A stretch of 64,000 nucleotides of DNA from Bacteroidota bacterium. GTDB taxonomy: Bacteria > Bacteroidota > Ignavibacteria > Kapaibacteriales > UBA961. The stretch spans positions 1,043 to 65,042 of the forward strand of contig JAFDZU010000022.1 of assembly GCA_018266765.1 (NCBI GenBank), given 5' to 3'. This document shows positions 22,069 to 28,285 of the stretch, one piece after another. The notes below the pieces were generated by a model. That model ran no database searches. It was not told the DNA's origin and saw only the letters and a list, made by a program, of their open reading frames with translations. The translations under genes were made by a program, and so were the position numbers. Each line of letters starts with the position of its first letter. The stretch's first letter is position 1.

Positions 22069-24591
22069 ATGTCAATCCCAATGAAACTTACATTCAATAG
22101 AAAAACTCTCGAAGTTGTAATCATGTGTCTTGGATTATTGCTATCCAATACTCTAAGTGCTCAATATAATAACCTTTGGATACCGGATACTTTATCCGGC
22201 AAAACATTCGACTTAAACTTATTAGATTCTTATTCTCAATTAAGACCCGGCAACCAAACTATAACCGCAGGAGTAAATAATAAATTCTGGGGTTCAACTT
22301 TGTTTTTTAATAAAGGCGATACAGTTCATATAAATGTTCAAAATTCTCTGAACGATTCAACAACTATTCATTGGCATGGATTTCACTTACCGGCTGTTAT
22401 GGATGGCGGCCCTCATCAAGTAATTCCACCGGGAACTATTTGGAAACCATATTGGAAAGTAACTAATAATGCCGCAACATATTGGTATCATCCTCATCTA
22501 CACGAGATGACACAAGAGCAAATGACAAAAGGAGTCGGTGGATTTATTATAGTGAGAGATGATGAAGAATCTAAACTAGTATTACCCAGAACCTATGGTG
22601 TGGATGATATTCCACTTGCTTTAACTAGTAGAAGATATGATGCTTCAAATGCTTTTGTCTATACCAATACATCGTATGGCGATTATATGTTAACAAACGG
22701 TACACCTAATGCACAGGTCAGTTTGCCGAAACAATACGTTCGTCTGCGTATTTTAAATGCTGAAATGGAACGTGCTTATAATTTGGGGTTTAGCGATAAT
22801 AGGACTTTTTATTTAATTACGACTGACGGGGGATTAGTAAATGCTCCAATTCCTTTAACTAGAATTATTCTTGGGGTAGGAGAGAGAGCTGAAATCCTTG
22901 TTGATTTAAGTAATGATGCGGTTGGTTCAAGTATAGATTTAAAAGCATATAATGCAGGTTTTTCTTTGGGATTTCCAGGTGGTGAACCAAATACCGGAGG
23001 TCAATTTGGTAGTCTGTTAAACAACAAAGTATTTACTGTTTTACACATAAATATTGCTCCAACCACTTCAAATCCAATTACTACAAAACCGACTATTTTG
23101 GCAAATAATACTTATTGGACTGCATCGGATGCAACTGTTAATAGAACAGTTACCGTAACCGGTGGTCAAGGACCAAATCCATTTACATTTGATAATTCCG
23201 CTTTTGCATTAACAAGAATCAATAAAACTGTTGAAATGAACACAGTTGAAAAATGGACAATTACGAATAATAATATTTTTGGACATTCTTTTCATATTCA
23301 TGATGTTCAATTTAAAATTATCTCTCGAAGTAATGGCCCTGTTTCGGCTTACGAAGAAGGATGGAAAGACGTTCTGTTTTTACCTATCAATGCTTCTGCA
23401 ACCTTTGTAGCCAAATTCGCTGATTATTCAGATTCAATTCATCCATTTATGTATCATTGTCATTTTGCTCCACACGAAGACGCCGGAATGATGGGGCAAT
23501 TCGTGGTTAAAAGTAATTATAGTTTAAATGTTTCAACAAATTCTATAGTAATTCCTTCTATTGCAAACAATACAAATACTTTTGATATAACATCAAATAC
23601 AAAATGGACAATAAAAAGTAATCAAACATGGTTATCTGTAAATATTCAGAATGGTAACGGAAACTCTACTATTACGATTTCAGCAGAAGAGAATAAAAAT
23701 ACTTTTTCGAGAACTGCATTAATTTTAGTCTCCGGTGTAGGAGTTACCTCAAAAACAATTACTATTACACAAGAAGCAAGTAGCCCTACTTTATTGGTAT
23801 CCAAAAACAGTCTGACAATTGCCGCACCTGCCAAAAGCACTAAGTCATTCGATATTTTATCCAATGTATCTTGGAATATAGAAAGTGACCAACCTTGGCT
23901 AACTCCAAATAAAATTTCAGGAAATGGAAATGAAACGATCGAACTGACTGCACTGGGAAATTCTGCAACTTCTACGAGAATTGCAACAATAACAGTGGAA
24001 GGGACAGGTGTAAATTCACAAATGATTACTGTTATACAAGACGGAGTTGGCCCAACATTAACGGTCTCAAAAACATTGTTTTCTATTCAAGCATTGAATA
24101 TGAGTAAACTGTCGTTTGAAATAATGTCGAATACAAGTTGGAAGACAACAAGTAATAAAAATTGGTTGATGGTTGATAAAACAAGTGGTTCTGGAGATGC
24201 AGTCGTACATCTTTCTGTTGAAGAAAATACCGATACAGTAAGTAGAACCGGTACGATTTCAGTTACTGCGTCCGGTGTTACCACTCAACAAATAATCGTA
24301 AATCAAGAAGCAAAAGCTCCATCCGGAGTTGAGTATGAAATTGAAACTCTTGGATTCTCAATTTATCCAAACCCTGCAAAAAACAAAATATATGTACGGT
24401 ACTCAACCCCAACAATGATACCTTATTACGTTAAAATACTGGATGCTATAGGCAGAACACTTTATATGCTTCCTCGCCCACAATTACAAGAAGGTATCGA
24501 TATCAGTAAACTATCAACAGGAACATATTTTGTAGTGTTAACTGATGAAAAAACAAAGCAGACATTCTCCCAACAATTTATTAAAGAATAA
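22069..24591 (+). CDS. Secreted multicopper oxidase with three BACON domains and T9SS tail
   Basis: The protein has 840 residues. After the signal peptide (to about 31) comes a three-cupredoxin oxidase of the laccase/CotA/bilirubin oxidase type. All four copper-binding motifs are present: H-W-H-G-F-H (101-106), H-P-H-L-H (141-145), H-S-F-H-I-H (406-411) and H-C-H-F-A-P-H-E-D-A-G-M (463-474), the last giving the type 1 Cys and a methionine axial ligand. BACON repeats cover about 485-760, and a T9SS sorting domain (I-Y-P-N-P-A-K) ends it. It would oxidise phenols, metals or bilirubin-like substrates outside the cell with O2. The ATG at 22081 is an equally good start. Confidence 0.9.
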   Translation: MSIPMKLTFNRKTLEVVIMCLGLLLSNTLSAQYNNLWIPDTLSGKTFDLNLLDSYSQLRPGNQTITAGVNNKFWGSTLFFNKGDTVHINVQNSLNDSTTIHWHGFHLPAVMDGGPHQVIPPGTIWKPYWKVTNNAATYWYHPHLHEMTQEQMTKGVGGFIIVRDDEESKLVLPRTYGVDDIPLALTSRRYDASNAFVYTNTSYGDYMLTNGTPNAQVSLPKQYVRLRILNAEMERAYNLGFSDNRTFYLITTDGGLVNAPIPLTRIILGVGERAEILVDLSNDAVGSSIDLKAYNAGFSLGFPGGEPNTGGQFGSLLNNKVFTVLHINIAPTTSNPITTKPTILANNTYWTASDATVNRTVTVTGGQGPNPFTFDNSAFALTRINKTVEMNTVEKWTITNNNIFGHSFHIHDVQFKIISRSNGPVSAYEEGWKDVLFLPINASATFVAKFADYSDSIHPFMYHCHFAPHEDAGMMGQFVVKSNYSLNVSTNSIVIPSIANNTNTFDITSNTKWTIKSNQTWLSVNIQNGNGNSTITISAEENKNTFSRTALILVSGVGVTSKTITITQEASSPTLLVSKNSLTIAAPAKSTKSFDILSNVSWNIESDQPWLTPNKISGNGNETIELTALGNSATSTRIATITVEGTGVNSQMITVIQDGVGPTLTVSKTLFSIQALNMSKLSFEIMSNTSWKTTSNKNWLMVDKTSGSGDAVVHLSVEENTDTVSRTGTISVTASGVTTQQIIVNQEAKAPSGVEYEIETLGFSIYPNPAKNKIYVRYSTPTMIPYYVKILDAIGRTLYMLPRPQLQEGIDISKLSTGTYFVVLTDEKTKQTFSQQFIKE

Positions 24592-25191
24592 GTGAATAGT
24601 ATTAATAAAATAATATGGTTATCTGTTTTATCAATTATATTGATGAGCTTTAATTCTACGTATGAAAAAACTGTTCAAGATTTCGAGTTACTTAATGTAG
24701 ATGGAACTATGGTATCTTTGTCAAATTACCCGAAAGCAAAAGGTTTTATTATTGTATTCACATGTAATCATTGTCCTTTTGCTAAATTATATCCACCTCG
24801 TTTAAATGAATTGATTGATAAGTATTCTGAGTTGGGTGTTCCATTAATAGCTATTAGTTCTACAGATACAATTATGTACCAAGAAGATACTTACATCAAA
24901 ATGGTTGAAAAATCTAAAATAGAGCATTTTAAATTTCCCTATTTGATTGATGGGAACCAGAATGTAGCTAAAAATTTTAGTGCACAAAAAACTCCGCATG
25001 CTTTTGTCATTTGGAAAGAAAATAATCAATGGAAAGTAAAATATAATGGTGCAATAGATGATAATGGTGCAGAATCCAAAAAAGTTCAGCATCATTATCT
25101 ATCAGATGCTGTTGATGAATTACTTGCCGGTAAAAAAGTTGGAATGAATGAAACAAAGTCAGTTGGATGTCAAATTTATTTTAGGAAGTAA
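24592..25191 (+). CDS. Thioredoxin-fold redoxin protein, exported
   Basis: The protein has 199 residues. A hydrophobic N-terminus of about 20 residues suggests export. It is an AhpC/TSA-like redoxin domain with the motif C58-N-H-C61-P-F-A-K, followed by L-I-D-G-N-Q-N-V-A-K-N-F and the cis-proline context K-T-P-H-A-F-V. Such proteins reduce disulfides or peroxides in the periplasm. The start is GTG directly after the TAA of the oxidase gene with no spacing, so it depends on translational coupling. Its position between a copper oxidase and a sulfatase suggests a role in their folding or copper-site redox, which is inference. Confidence 0.82.
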   Translation: MNSINKIIWLSVLSIILMSFNSTYEKTVQDFELLNVDGTMVSLSNYPKAKGFIIVFTCNHCPFAKLYPPRLNELIDKYSELGVPLIAISSTDTIMYQEDTYIKMVEKSKIEHFKFPYLIDGNQNVAKNFSAQKTPHAFVIWKENNQWKVKYNGAIDDNGAESKKVQHHYLSDAVDELLAGKKVGMNETKSVGCQIYFRK

Positions 25192-26784
25192 ATGATTAAA
25201 TTATTTAAGAAACTAATTTATCTCATAACATTATTATTTATATTAAGTTCAGTTTCTGCTCAAAGAAACGTCATTCTTATAATCGCAGATGATTTAGGTA
25301 CTGATTATTGCGGATTTTATGAAAATCATTTAGATACTGTAAATCTTCCTAATGTAAGAAGACTCCTTGCAAAGGGTGTTCGATTTAAAAATGCTTGGTC
25401 AAATCCTTTGTGTTCACCCACTCGGGCAGGAATTTTAACCGGACGATATAGTTTTCGAACAGGTGTGGGTGATGCTGTTGGGGGAGTTGGTTCAGCAGTT
25501 TTAGATACTTCTGAAATTACAATCCCACGAATTTTGAATATTTTTACTCCAAATGGCATTGCAAAAGCTAACATCGGGAAATGGCATCTACATTCTCCGA
25601 TGCCAAAATCAAATTTATTTTTACCCAATACAATGGGTTATGATCACTTTGAAGGTAATTTCATAGGAATGCTAAATAGTTATTTTGATTGGACTAAAGT
25701 AACGAATGGCATTTCAAATAATGTAACAAACTATGCTACAACAGAAACTATAAATAATGCAATTGCATGGATCAAAAAGCAAAATAATAAACCATTTTTC
25801 CTGTGGCTTGCCTTTAACGCCCCTCATACTCCATACCATCTACCACCATTAAATTTACATTCTTATTCTGGATTAAGCGGAACTGATGCTGATATAACAG
25901 CTAATCCTAAAGCATATTTTAAAGCTATGAATGAAGCTATGGATCATGAAATTGGTAGATTGTTCGATTCATTGCAAGTAATTAAAAAATATGACAGTAC
26001 AGATATAATTTTTATTGGTGATAATGGCAATGATAAGTTAGTATCACAAAATTCTGGAAGTGCAAAAGGTAGTATTTATCAGGAAGGTGTGAGTGTTCCT
26101 TTTATTATTTCCGGACCTTCAATTATCAATCCAAATCGTTCAAGTGAAGCTTTGGTCAGTACACATGACTTATTCGCAACAATAATAGAATTATACGGTT
26201 ATGACAACTGGAAAAGCCAAATACCTGTTAATAAACCAGTAGATAGCAAGAGTATTATTCCAATATTAAAAGATAAATCTAATGATGTTCGCTCTTGGGT
26301 TTTTACTGAAGTTTTCAAAAATCCAACTGTGACCGGTGATGGTAAAACTATAAGAAATAAGACTTATAAACTATTAGATTTTGATAATGGTTCTCAAGAA
26401 TTCTATAATTTGAAAAATGATCCAAACGAAAATAAGAATTTACTTTCAGGCACTATGAATTCAGAGGAAATTAATAATTATAATGAATTATGTTCAGAAA
26501 TGACAACGTTAATAGGTAATGGTTTACATTGTAAAAATATTAGTGGAGTTCAAAATAATGAAGATTCAAGTATGGTGACTGAATATCCAAATCCATTTAC
26601 ATCGTATATTTTTCTACCAAACTCTACAGGGAATGAAGTGTTTGAATTAAGTAATAATTTAGGTCAGATAGTTTTTAAGGGAAAACATATAGAATTACAA
26701 AATTTTTCAAATCTTATAAAAGGAAATTATATTTTGAAAGTAGAAGGAAATTCTAGTATGATATTAAAATTAATCAAAGAGTAG
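25192..26784 (+). CDS. Secreted sulfatase with T9SS tail
   Basis: The protein has 530 residues. A signal peptide ends about residue 23. The alkaline-phosphatase-superfamily sulfatase fold follows, with I-A-D-D-L-G (metal site D33-D34), the formylglycine motif C74-S-P-T-R, then G-K-W-H and, later, D-N-G-N-D with a lysine. The C-terminal 65 residues (T-E-Y-P-N-P-F) are a type IX sorting domain. Sulfatases remove sulfate esters, often from algal or animal polysaccharides. C74 needs a maturase, and none is in the window. It starts right after the TAA of the redoxin gene, with AGGAAG upstream, so it is the fourth gene of the operon. Confidence 0.93.
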   Translation: MIKLFKKLIYLITLLFILSSVSAQRNVILIIADDLGTDYCGFYENHLDTVNLPNVRRLLAKGVRFKNAWSNPLCSPTRAGILTGRYSFRTGVGDAVGGVGSAVLDTSEITIPRILNIFTPNGIAKANIGKWHLHSPMPKSNLFLPNTMGYDHFEGNFIGMLNSYFDWTKVTNGISNNVTNYATTETINNAIAWIKKQNNKPFFLWLAFNAPHTPYHLPPLNLHSYSGLSGTDADITANPKAYFKAMNEAMDHEIGRLFDSLQVIKKYDSTDIIFIGDNGNDKLVSQNSGSAKGSIYQEGVSVPFIISGPSIINPNRSSEALVSTHDLFATIIELYGYDNWKSQIPVNKPVDSKSIIPILKDKSNDVRSWVFTEVFKNPTVTGDGKTIRNKTYKLLDFDNGSQEFYNLKNDPNENKNLLSGTMNSEEINNYNELCSEMTTLIGNGLHCKNISGVQNNEDSSMVTEYPNPFTSYIFLPNSTGNEVFELSNNLGQIVFKGKHIELQNFSNLIKGNYILKVEGNSSMILKLIKE

Positions 26785-27085: not shown

Positions 27086-28285
27086 ATGGCAGTTGAGACA
27101 ACTCTATCAAAAAACATCTTGGATTTGGTTGTAGTTCGAGATAACAGCGTAAATTCACGCTACAAAAACGGTGTGAAAGTACCGATTACTACTTTTATCG
27201 AAGATTACATGAACGGCCGTGTAGATGTAACTTGTGATATTCAAAGATTACTTCAAAGCCGAACTCATTTCTTTAATTACAAGTACGTCGGTCATCATCT
27301 TAAATTCCTATTTGGACAATTTATTCCACAAGTTACAATACACTCTAAAAAACAAGATGAGCGTGTTATTCGCGATCATTATGACAGAGGAAATGATTTC
27401 TTTGGTTCGTTCTTGGGTGACAGAATGATTTATACCTCTGCATTCTTTAAAACCGGACTCGAAGATCTCGAAACGGCCCAAGATCAGAAACTTGATTTAG
27501 TTTGCCAAAAGATGCAACTAAAAAAAGGTGAACGCTTATTAGATATTGGTTGTGGGTGGGGAACACTTGCCGCACATTCAGCGAAATATTATGGTACTGA
27601 TTCTACCGGAATTACAATCGCTCAAGCAGGAGCAGATTATGCAAATGCACAAATAGAACGTTGGGGTGTAAAAGACAGAGCACGTGTGAATCGCATGGAT
27701 TATCGTAGTATTCCTGCTGATAAATATGATAAAATTTCTTGTTTAGAAATGGCAGAACATGTGGGAGTTAAGAATTTTACCAAGTTCATGAAACAAATCT
27801 CAGGATTAATGAAAGATGATGGAATCTTCTATCTGCAAATTGCAGGATTGCGTGCAGGTTATCATCAAGAATCTCTAATTTGGGGTGGATTTATGGGAGA
27901 GTATATTTTTCCCGGGGCTGACGCAAGTATGCCTCTTTCATTCGTTGTTAAAAGACTTGAAAAAGCAGGATTTGAAATTCATAGTGTTGAAAATATCGGG
28001 ATTCATTATTCACAAACAATACAATTATGGTATCATAACTGGCAACGCAATAAAGAACATGTGTTAAGTGCTTATGGACAGTGGTGGTTCCGTTGTTGGG
28101 AGATATTCTTAGGTTGGTCTGTTGATATTGCAAAACAAGGCAATTCAACTTGTTTCCAAATAATTTGTAATAAAAATAAAGATGAATATAATCGCCGACG
28201 TTGGTTCAATCAAGTAAATCTTGGTGAGCGCGATTTAGACACTAATGTAAAACTCCCAAGGGGAGGATTAGGCGAAACAGTTTAA
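27086..28285 (+). CDS. SAM-dependent methyltransferase, sphingolipid C9-methyltransferase-like (CfaS superfamily)
   Basis: The protein is about 399 residues from the ATG at 27086, with a weak upstream site; the in-frame extension to 27050 looks non-coding. The SAM-binding core is L-L-D-I-G-C-G-W-G-T-L-A. Around it are D-R-G-N-D-F-F, R-M-I-Y-T-S-A-F-F, C-L-E-M-A-E-H-V-G-V, L-Q-I-A-G-L-R, Y-I-F-P-G-A-D-A-S and N-I-G-I-H-Y-S. I recall this set from fungal sphingolipid C9-methyltransferases rather than from ordinary cyclopropane synthases. A role in methylating a membrane lipid is likely, but the substrate is inferred. It is monocistronic with a strong terminator. Confidence 0.85.
   Translation: MAVETTLSKNILDLVVVRDNSVNSRYKNGVKVPITTFIEDYMNGRVDVTCDIQRLLQSRTHFFNYKYVGHHLKFLFGQFIPQVTIHSKKQDERVIRDHYDRGNDFFGSFLGDRMIYTSAFFKTGLEDLETAQDQKLDLVCQKMQLKKGERLLDIGCGWGTLAAHSAKYYGTDSTGITIAQAGADYANAQIERWGVKDRARVNRMDYRSIPADKYDKISCLEMAEHVGVKNFTKFMKQISGLMKDDGIFYLQIAGLRAGYHQESLIWGGFMGEYIFPGADASMPLSFVVKRLEKAGFEIHSVENIGIHYSQTIQLWYHNWQRNKEHVLSAYGQWWFRCWEIFLGWSVDIAKQGNSTCFQIICNKNKDEYNRRRWFNQVNLGERDLDTNVKLPRGGLGETV

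Follow-up and report, generated by a model that had tools for sequence, protein, structure and literature searches.

A bacterial family of probable CMAS-type lipid C-methyltransferases, its partner desaturase, and a plausible link to sphingolipids

Methylation of the sphingoid base at C9 is described as a fungal trait that influences fungal growth and morphology (PMC9325734, PMC6920741, PMC13161914), and the sphingolipid C9-methyltransferase has been called fungal-specific (PMC9325734, PMC13161914). The N. crassa enzyme (NCU07859) consists of 525 aa and contains transmembrane (TM) helices at residues 53–75 and 87–109, a methyltransferase domain at 266–367, and a conserved EHV at 341 (PMC9325734). 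Among the mycobacterial enzymes, MmaA4 is reported to methylate mycolic acids next to their oxygenated group and MmaA1 to methylate beside a trans-cyclopropane, a role that according to the authors awaits a knock-out (PMC3245277). In bacterial ceramide synthesis, bCerS is an acyltransferase (PMC11087976).

The window, a 64,000-nucleotide stretch of bacterial DNA, contains a methyltransferase gene (Table 1) that had been read in an earlier note as encoding a bacterial relative of the fungal enzyme. Here we show how this gene compares with the systems above. Its product and the relatives of that product are best described as a new bacterial CMAS-type lipid C-methyltransferase family that is accompanied by a dedicated desaturase and for which sphingolipids are plausible substrates.

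The gene and its family

The open reading frame starts with the ATG at 27086 and ends with the stop codon at 28283–28285, and the Pfam CMAS domain (PF02353) spans aa 86–359 of the product (E = 4e-67). The five motifs quoted in the earlier note were all located in the protein, at aa 219–227 (CLEMAEHVG), 250–256 (LQIAGLR), 273–281 (YIFPGADAS), 303–309 (NIGIHYS), and 356–359 (CFQI), and the gene is real. Loosened forms of the first four were found in 33–34 of the 34 family members, whereas none of the 34 sequences of the cyclopropane-synthase type or from the reference set had them; thus, the motif set is specific to the family and not due to chance. A promoter and terminator scan at the gene gave nothing above shuffles that bears on it. 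The + strand run just 5' of the gene (window 22069–26784) encodes a BACON-domain multicopper oxidase, a thioredoxin-like protein, and a sulfatase with a type IX sorting tail.

Table 1. Positions in the window of the methyltransferase gene and of motifs and active-site residues of its product
Feature	Position	Strand	Remarks
C-methyltransferase gene	27086..28285	+	399 aa; product forms part of a new, discrete bacterial family within the CMAS superfamily
S118 (= E. coli CfaS C139 position)	27437..27439	+	S in 32/34 family, C in 25/28 CfaS-type
SAM-binding motif LDIGCGWGT (aa 152–160)	27539..27565	+	–
E221	27746..27748	+	family-invariant and shared with MmaA4 and MmaA1; G in cyclopropane synthases
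E224 of EHVG (= E. coli CfaS E239 position)	27755..27757	+	conserved
Q251 (= E. coli H266)	27836..27838	+	34/34 family; H in most cyclopropane synthases, Q in MmaA4
A253 (= E. coli I268)	27842..27844	+	33/34 family; I in cyclopropane synthases, S in MmaA4
GADAS motif (aa 277–281)	27914..27928	+	family-invariant; absent from CfaS-type sequences
Y308 (= E. coli CfaS Y317 position)	28007..28009	+	conserved

The fold model of the protein (mean pLDDT 81.9) matched CfaS and mycolate methyltransferases best, as expected, and the best solved relatives by sequence and fold were the CfaS enzymes 7qos, 5z9o, and 6bqc. This result would fit an ordinary, if divergent, cyclopropane fatty acid synthase with phospholipids as its substrates, as would the retained ligands E224 and Y308 and the finding that the gene is the sole full-length CMAS of the 3.71-Mb genome (rated 100% complete, 0.29% contamination). 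Plant N-methyltransferases of the CMAS fold were also detectable as relatives. Coclaurine N-methyltransferase uses this fold, and the window protein could likewise methylate a nitrogen or oxygen atom in a small molecule or a lipid head group; however, lipid-chain enzymes are closer by both sequence and fold, and the co-occurrence with a membrane desaturase (see below) also makes such a role very improbable.

Thirty-five loci of the methyltransferase family, with 50–94% identity to the window protein, were taken from bacterial contigs representing one genome per species. The hosts were Kapabacteria-like MAGs, Saprospiraceae (including Aureispira), Flavobacteriales, and one Polyangiaceae MAG, and the nearest relatives (identity up to 93–94%) came from Ignavibacteria/Candidatus Kapaibacterium MAGs, which makes the organism of the window a Kapabacteria-like member of the Bacteroidota/Chlorobiota group. 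Eighteen members aligned over almost their full length with a mean column identity of 63%. When the family profile was compared with 297 genomes of the phylum (Bacteroidota), 10 genomes gave matches of 684–749 bits, and the next match anywhere was at most 227 bits. In a maximum-likelihood tree containing 34 family rows and CfaS-type, viral, and solved references, the family formed a single branch (support 100/100), which persisted in a tree without long or sister branches (SH-aLRT 100). The sister group and the root of the family tree are unsure because long branches meet; with the root not fixed, the window protein was not placed among the CfaS sequences of this tree. Its scores against the NCBIfam CfaS models were 208.9, 203.8, and 195.4 bits, all below the respective cut-offs of 400, 650, and 600 bits, and the mycolic acid methyltransferase model NF040660 gave 120.6 bits, below its cut-off of 390.

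The window gene has no operon partner, most family members are without conserved neighbors, and a search for a conserved methyltransferase neighborhood in the clade of the window protein found none. One subclade (L028, L030, L031, L032, L037, and L041) has a conserved ORF of 311–322 aa immediately upstream, usually with an OsmC-like protein in between.

An altered active site

The catalytic bicarbonate of E. coli CfaS is liganded by C139, E239, H266, I268, and Y317. The alignment showed that the bicarbonate/cation site reads S-E-E-Q-A-Y in the family and C-G-E-H-I-Y in cyclopropane synthases, and that the closest match to the family is the C-E-E-Q-S-Y of MmaA4 (Hma), the methyl-branching hydroxymycolate synthase. 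At the position of E221, the mycobacterial enzymes CmaA1, PcaA, and MmaA2 have glycine, in contrast with the glutamate of MmaA4 and MmaA1; UmaA, the product of which is uncertain, also has glycine. MmaA4 further resembles the family in having glutamine at position 251 and a small side chain at position 253. Both MmaA4 and MmaA1 nevertheless belong to another clade, show only ~24–27% identity in the fold comparison, lack the N-terminal domain, and act on mycolic acids. The CfaS enzymes (6bqc, 5z9o, and 7qos) share the fold, the N-terminal region plus SAM domain, and the E and Y ligands with the window protein, but the identity to CfaS-type proteins is ~30–35%, the family carries the C→S, G→E, H→Q, and I→A replacements, and the clades are separate. 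Since the site residues resemble those of MmaA4 and MmaA1 and not those of cyclopropane synthases, the family is predicted to make a methyl branch and not a cyclopropane ring.

An ordinary cyclopropane fatty acid synthase is improbable in the light of these results: nearly all of the 34 members have other residues at three ligand positions in addition to the G→E change at 221, the scores of 195–209 bits are far from the CfaS cut-offs of 400–650, the family is a separate clade set off by a large score gap, and its tie to one rare desaturase type is unexpected for a general CFA synthase. The leaning of the earlier note away from an ordinary cyclopropane synthase is supported by the separate clade, the altered site, and the low scores; a position within the bacterial cyclopropane synthases, which the note had regarded as contrary to its proposal, was not what the tree showed.

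Outside the family, a very divergent long-branch CMAS, CFA_L093 (G120:C20:33793–34617), also has S-E-E-Q at the altered site positions and is possibly another non-cyclopropanating methyltransferase.

The partner desaturase and candidate ceramide genes

At a Saprospiraceae family locus (L033), the methyltransferase ORF is preceded on the same strand by a PF00487 desaturase gene, the end of which is 9 bases away, and at a Flavobacteriales locus (L034), a homologous desaturase gene adjoins the methyltransferase gene tail to tail. The orthologue in the window genome (L060; G000:C90:19620–20504), which has 47% identity to the L033 desaturase, is not at the methyltransferase locus; the genome contains two more PF00487 desaturases, and a cytochrome b5 domain is present in 0 of the 3. 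The partner-type desaturase was found in 19 of the 297 phylum genomes, including 10 of the 10 methyltransferase-positive ones, while nine genomes have the desaturase without the methyltransferase. The unstratified probability of this co-occurrence is p = 7e-14, and the product of the within-taxonomic-family chances is ~0.01 as computed among family members in the matches listed. The fetched loci come from 33 genomes, a set that shares some members with the 10 positives of the phylum sample; in 31 of them there was a desaturase match of at least 260 bits, the Polyangiaceae genome included; G299 had no match and G303 only a weak one. Such one-way dependence would be expected if the methyltransferase acts on a double bond that the dedicated desaturase has introduced, and we infer that the two enzymes are paired on one substrate. 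In an Aureispira genome with the methyltransferase family (G324), two different partner-type desaturases are divergently adjacent (L206:4483–6925).

The window genome encodes one SPT-like alpha-oxoamine synthase (G000:C30:16162–17355) and a separate KBL. The best solved relative of the SPT-like protein was the Sphingobacterium SPT 3A2B (382.6 bits), with the next non-SPT structures (KBL/BioF) at ~270–271 bits and cysteate acyltransferase at 249 bits. Its best NCBIfam family was NF047600 (SPT), where the score of 477.5 bits is nevertheless under the cut-off of 640. In G204 and G128 (L164:7091–9583(+) and L167:5703–8090(−)), a GNAT acyltransferase domain is fused to the SPT-like protein, and the fusion is probably an SPT plus ceramide synthase in one polypeptide. 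The window genome has a stand-alone GNAT copy at C82:18919–20031 with 50% identity over 374 residues to the fused domain, which, judging from the fusion in relatives, fits a putative ceramide N-acyltransferase. Ceramide synthesis is thus plausible, because an SPT-like enzyme is accompanied by a GNAT acyltransferase of the type fused to SPT in relatives. Other SPT-GNAT-type frames of ~800–847 aa occur in several Kapabacteria-like and related genomes.

These genes would correspond to the SPT and the acyltransferase of the bacterial ceramide pathway (SPT, bCerS, and CerR) of Caulobacter and Bacteroidota, the difference being that the SPT of the window genome scores under the curated cut-off. The check for SPT and ceramide genes suggested in the earlier note yielded candidates for both the SPT (an SPT-like enzyme) and the ceramide N-acyltransferase, and the absence of sphingolipid genes that would have spoken against its proposal was not observed. 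In G144, G027, and G086 (L137:10659–12649, L138, and L166), an SDR gene directly follows the SPT gene and is in turn followed by a gene for a protein of 1257–1279 aa; the SDR is a possible 3-ketosphinganine or ceramide reductase. No CerR was assigned in the window genome, as SDR proteins are too generic.

The distance between the desaturase and SPT genes is 2–4 kb in G144 and G311 and ~10 kb in G027 and G310. This is weak support for a functional link, since the four genomes probably have their synteny in common through relatedness. Most methyltransferase-positive genomes have an SPT. However, SPT-like enzymes were found in 224 of the 297 genomes of the phylum sample, so their association with the methyltransferase says little, an SPT being necessary for a sphingolipid role but not discriminating, and SPT co-occurrence was dropped as a discriminating test. 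Two Flavobacteriales MAGs (G323 and G325) carry the methyltransferase and the desaturase together with only a KBL-type alpha-oxoamine synthase and no detected SPT, and G297, G303, G312, G321, and G328 lacked an SPT match at the threshold used. These seven genomes argue against a role confined to sphingolipids, as far as the MAGs can be taken as complete.

The same chemistry could therefore be applied to another lipid, so that the desaturase and methyltransferase would introduce a methyl branch (or a methylene group) into the fatty acyl chains of phospholipids or of some other lipid instead of modifying a sphingoid base. G323 and G325 fit this alternative, as do the two further desaturases of the window genome, and to our knowledge the bacterial CMAS enzymes of known function act on acyl chains. 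The proximity of desaturase and SPT in some Kapabacteria-like genomes, the presence of SPT in most methyltransferase-positive genomes, and the presumed resemblance of the motif set to fungal sphingolipid C9-methyltransferases argue against it. We regard a non-sphingoid substrate as a realistic option, although a less likely one than the sphingoid chain.

Relation to the fungal enzyme and proposed role

The double bond of the fungal substrate is made by a Δ8 sphingolipid desaturase of the cytochrome-b5-fusion family. The fungal C9-methyltransferases (EC 2.1.1.317; MTS1, Mt1/Mt2, and N. crassa NCU07859 scumbo) resemble the window protein in having a CMAS/CfaS-like SAM methyltransferase domain with EHV and in the probable pairing with a desaturase. 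They presumably also contain GADAS and LEMAEHVG, a motif likeness that serves as a lead only. The window protein has 223 residues before EHV and the N. crassa enzyme 340, the fungal enzyme being ~117 residues longer there; after EHV there are 173 residues in the window protein, 182 in the N. crassa enzyme (PMC9325734), and 141 in E. coli CfaS. With EHV at 224 as compared with 341, the window protein is equivalent to the fungal enzyme minus ~117 N-terminal residues, without both helices. The lengths on the two sides of EHV agree with a fungal kinship but do not prove it.

The N-terminal TM helix pair of the fungal enzyme was not found in the window protein, in which the highest 19-residue Kyte–Doolittle mean was 0.83, and the desaturases of the window genome differ from the fungal Δ8 desaturase in lacking the fused cytochrome b5. 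Since neither the helix pair nor such a desaturase is present, we rejected filing the protein as a fungal-type C9-methyltransferase. No fungal C9-methyltransferase was found among the PDB relatives or on the viral contigs, which contained ordinary CMAS relatives or none. The idea of a bacterial sphingolipid methyltransferase put forward in the earlier note has thus stood in part: it is plausible in view of the SPT-like enzyme, the GNAT protein, and the desaturase tie, whereas the helices and the b5-type desaturase of the fungal system are missing and some hosts have no detected SPT.

We tentatively favor a desaturase-paired lipid C-methyltransferase that introduces a methyl branch, with the sphingoid chain of ceramide as its most likely substrate, and would give this reading nearly even credence. 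The dedicated membrane desaturase (L060) would place a C=C double bond into a membrane-lipid chain, and the CMAS-superfamily SAM methyltransferase would transfer a methyl group to it. Because the cation/bicarbonate pocket carries changes like those of the methyl-branching enzymes of mycobacteria, the resulting carbocation would probably give a methyl-branched chain and not a cyclopropane; this chain would still be unsaturated if the enzyme works like the fungal one. A sphingolipid substrate is plausible; the sphingoid chain would be supplied as ceramide by the SPT and the GNAT-type acyltransferase of the organism, and the enzyme would then match the fungal sphingolipid C9-methyltransferase in function.

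Annotation of the family as cyclopropane synthase would be misleading. A family that has a methyl-branching-type site and is tied to a desaturase of its own, within genomes that carry ceramide genes, is a testable candidate for the production of bacterial methyl-branched sphingolipids. It is possible, if somewhat doubtful, that Kapabacteria-like bacteria, Saprospiraceae, and a few others make C-methyl-branched sphingoid bases by a sphingolipid desaturase–methyltransferase pathway involving an enzyme related to the fungal C9-methyltransferase. If true, such a bacterial pathway would end the view of sphingoid C-methylation as fungal-specific and would raise the question of a transfer between bacteria and fungi or of a bacterial origin.
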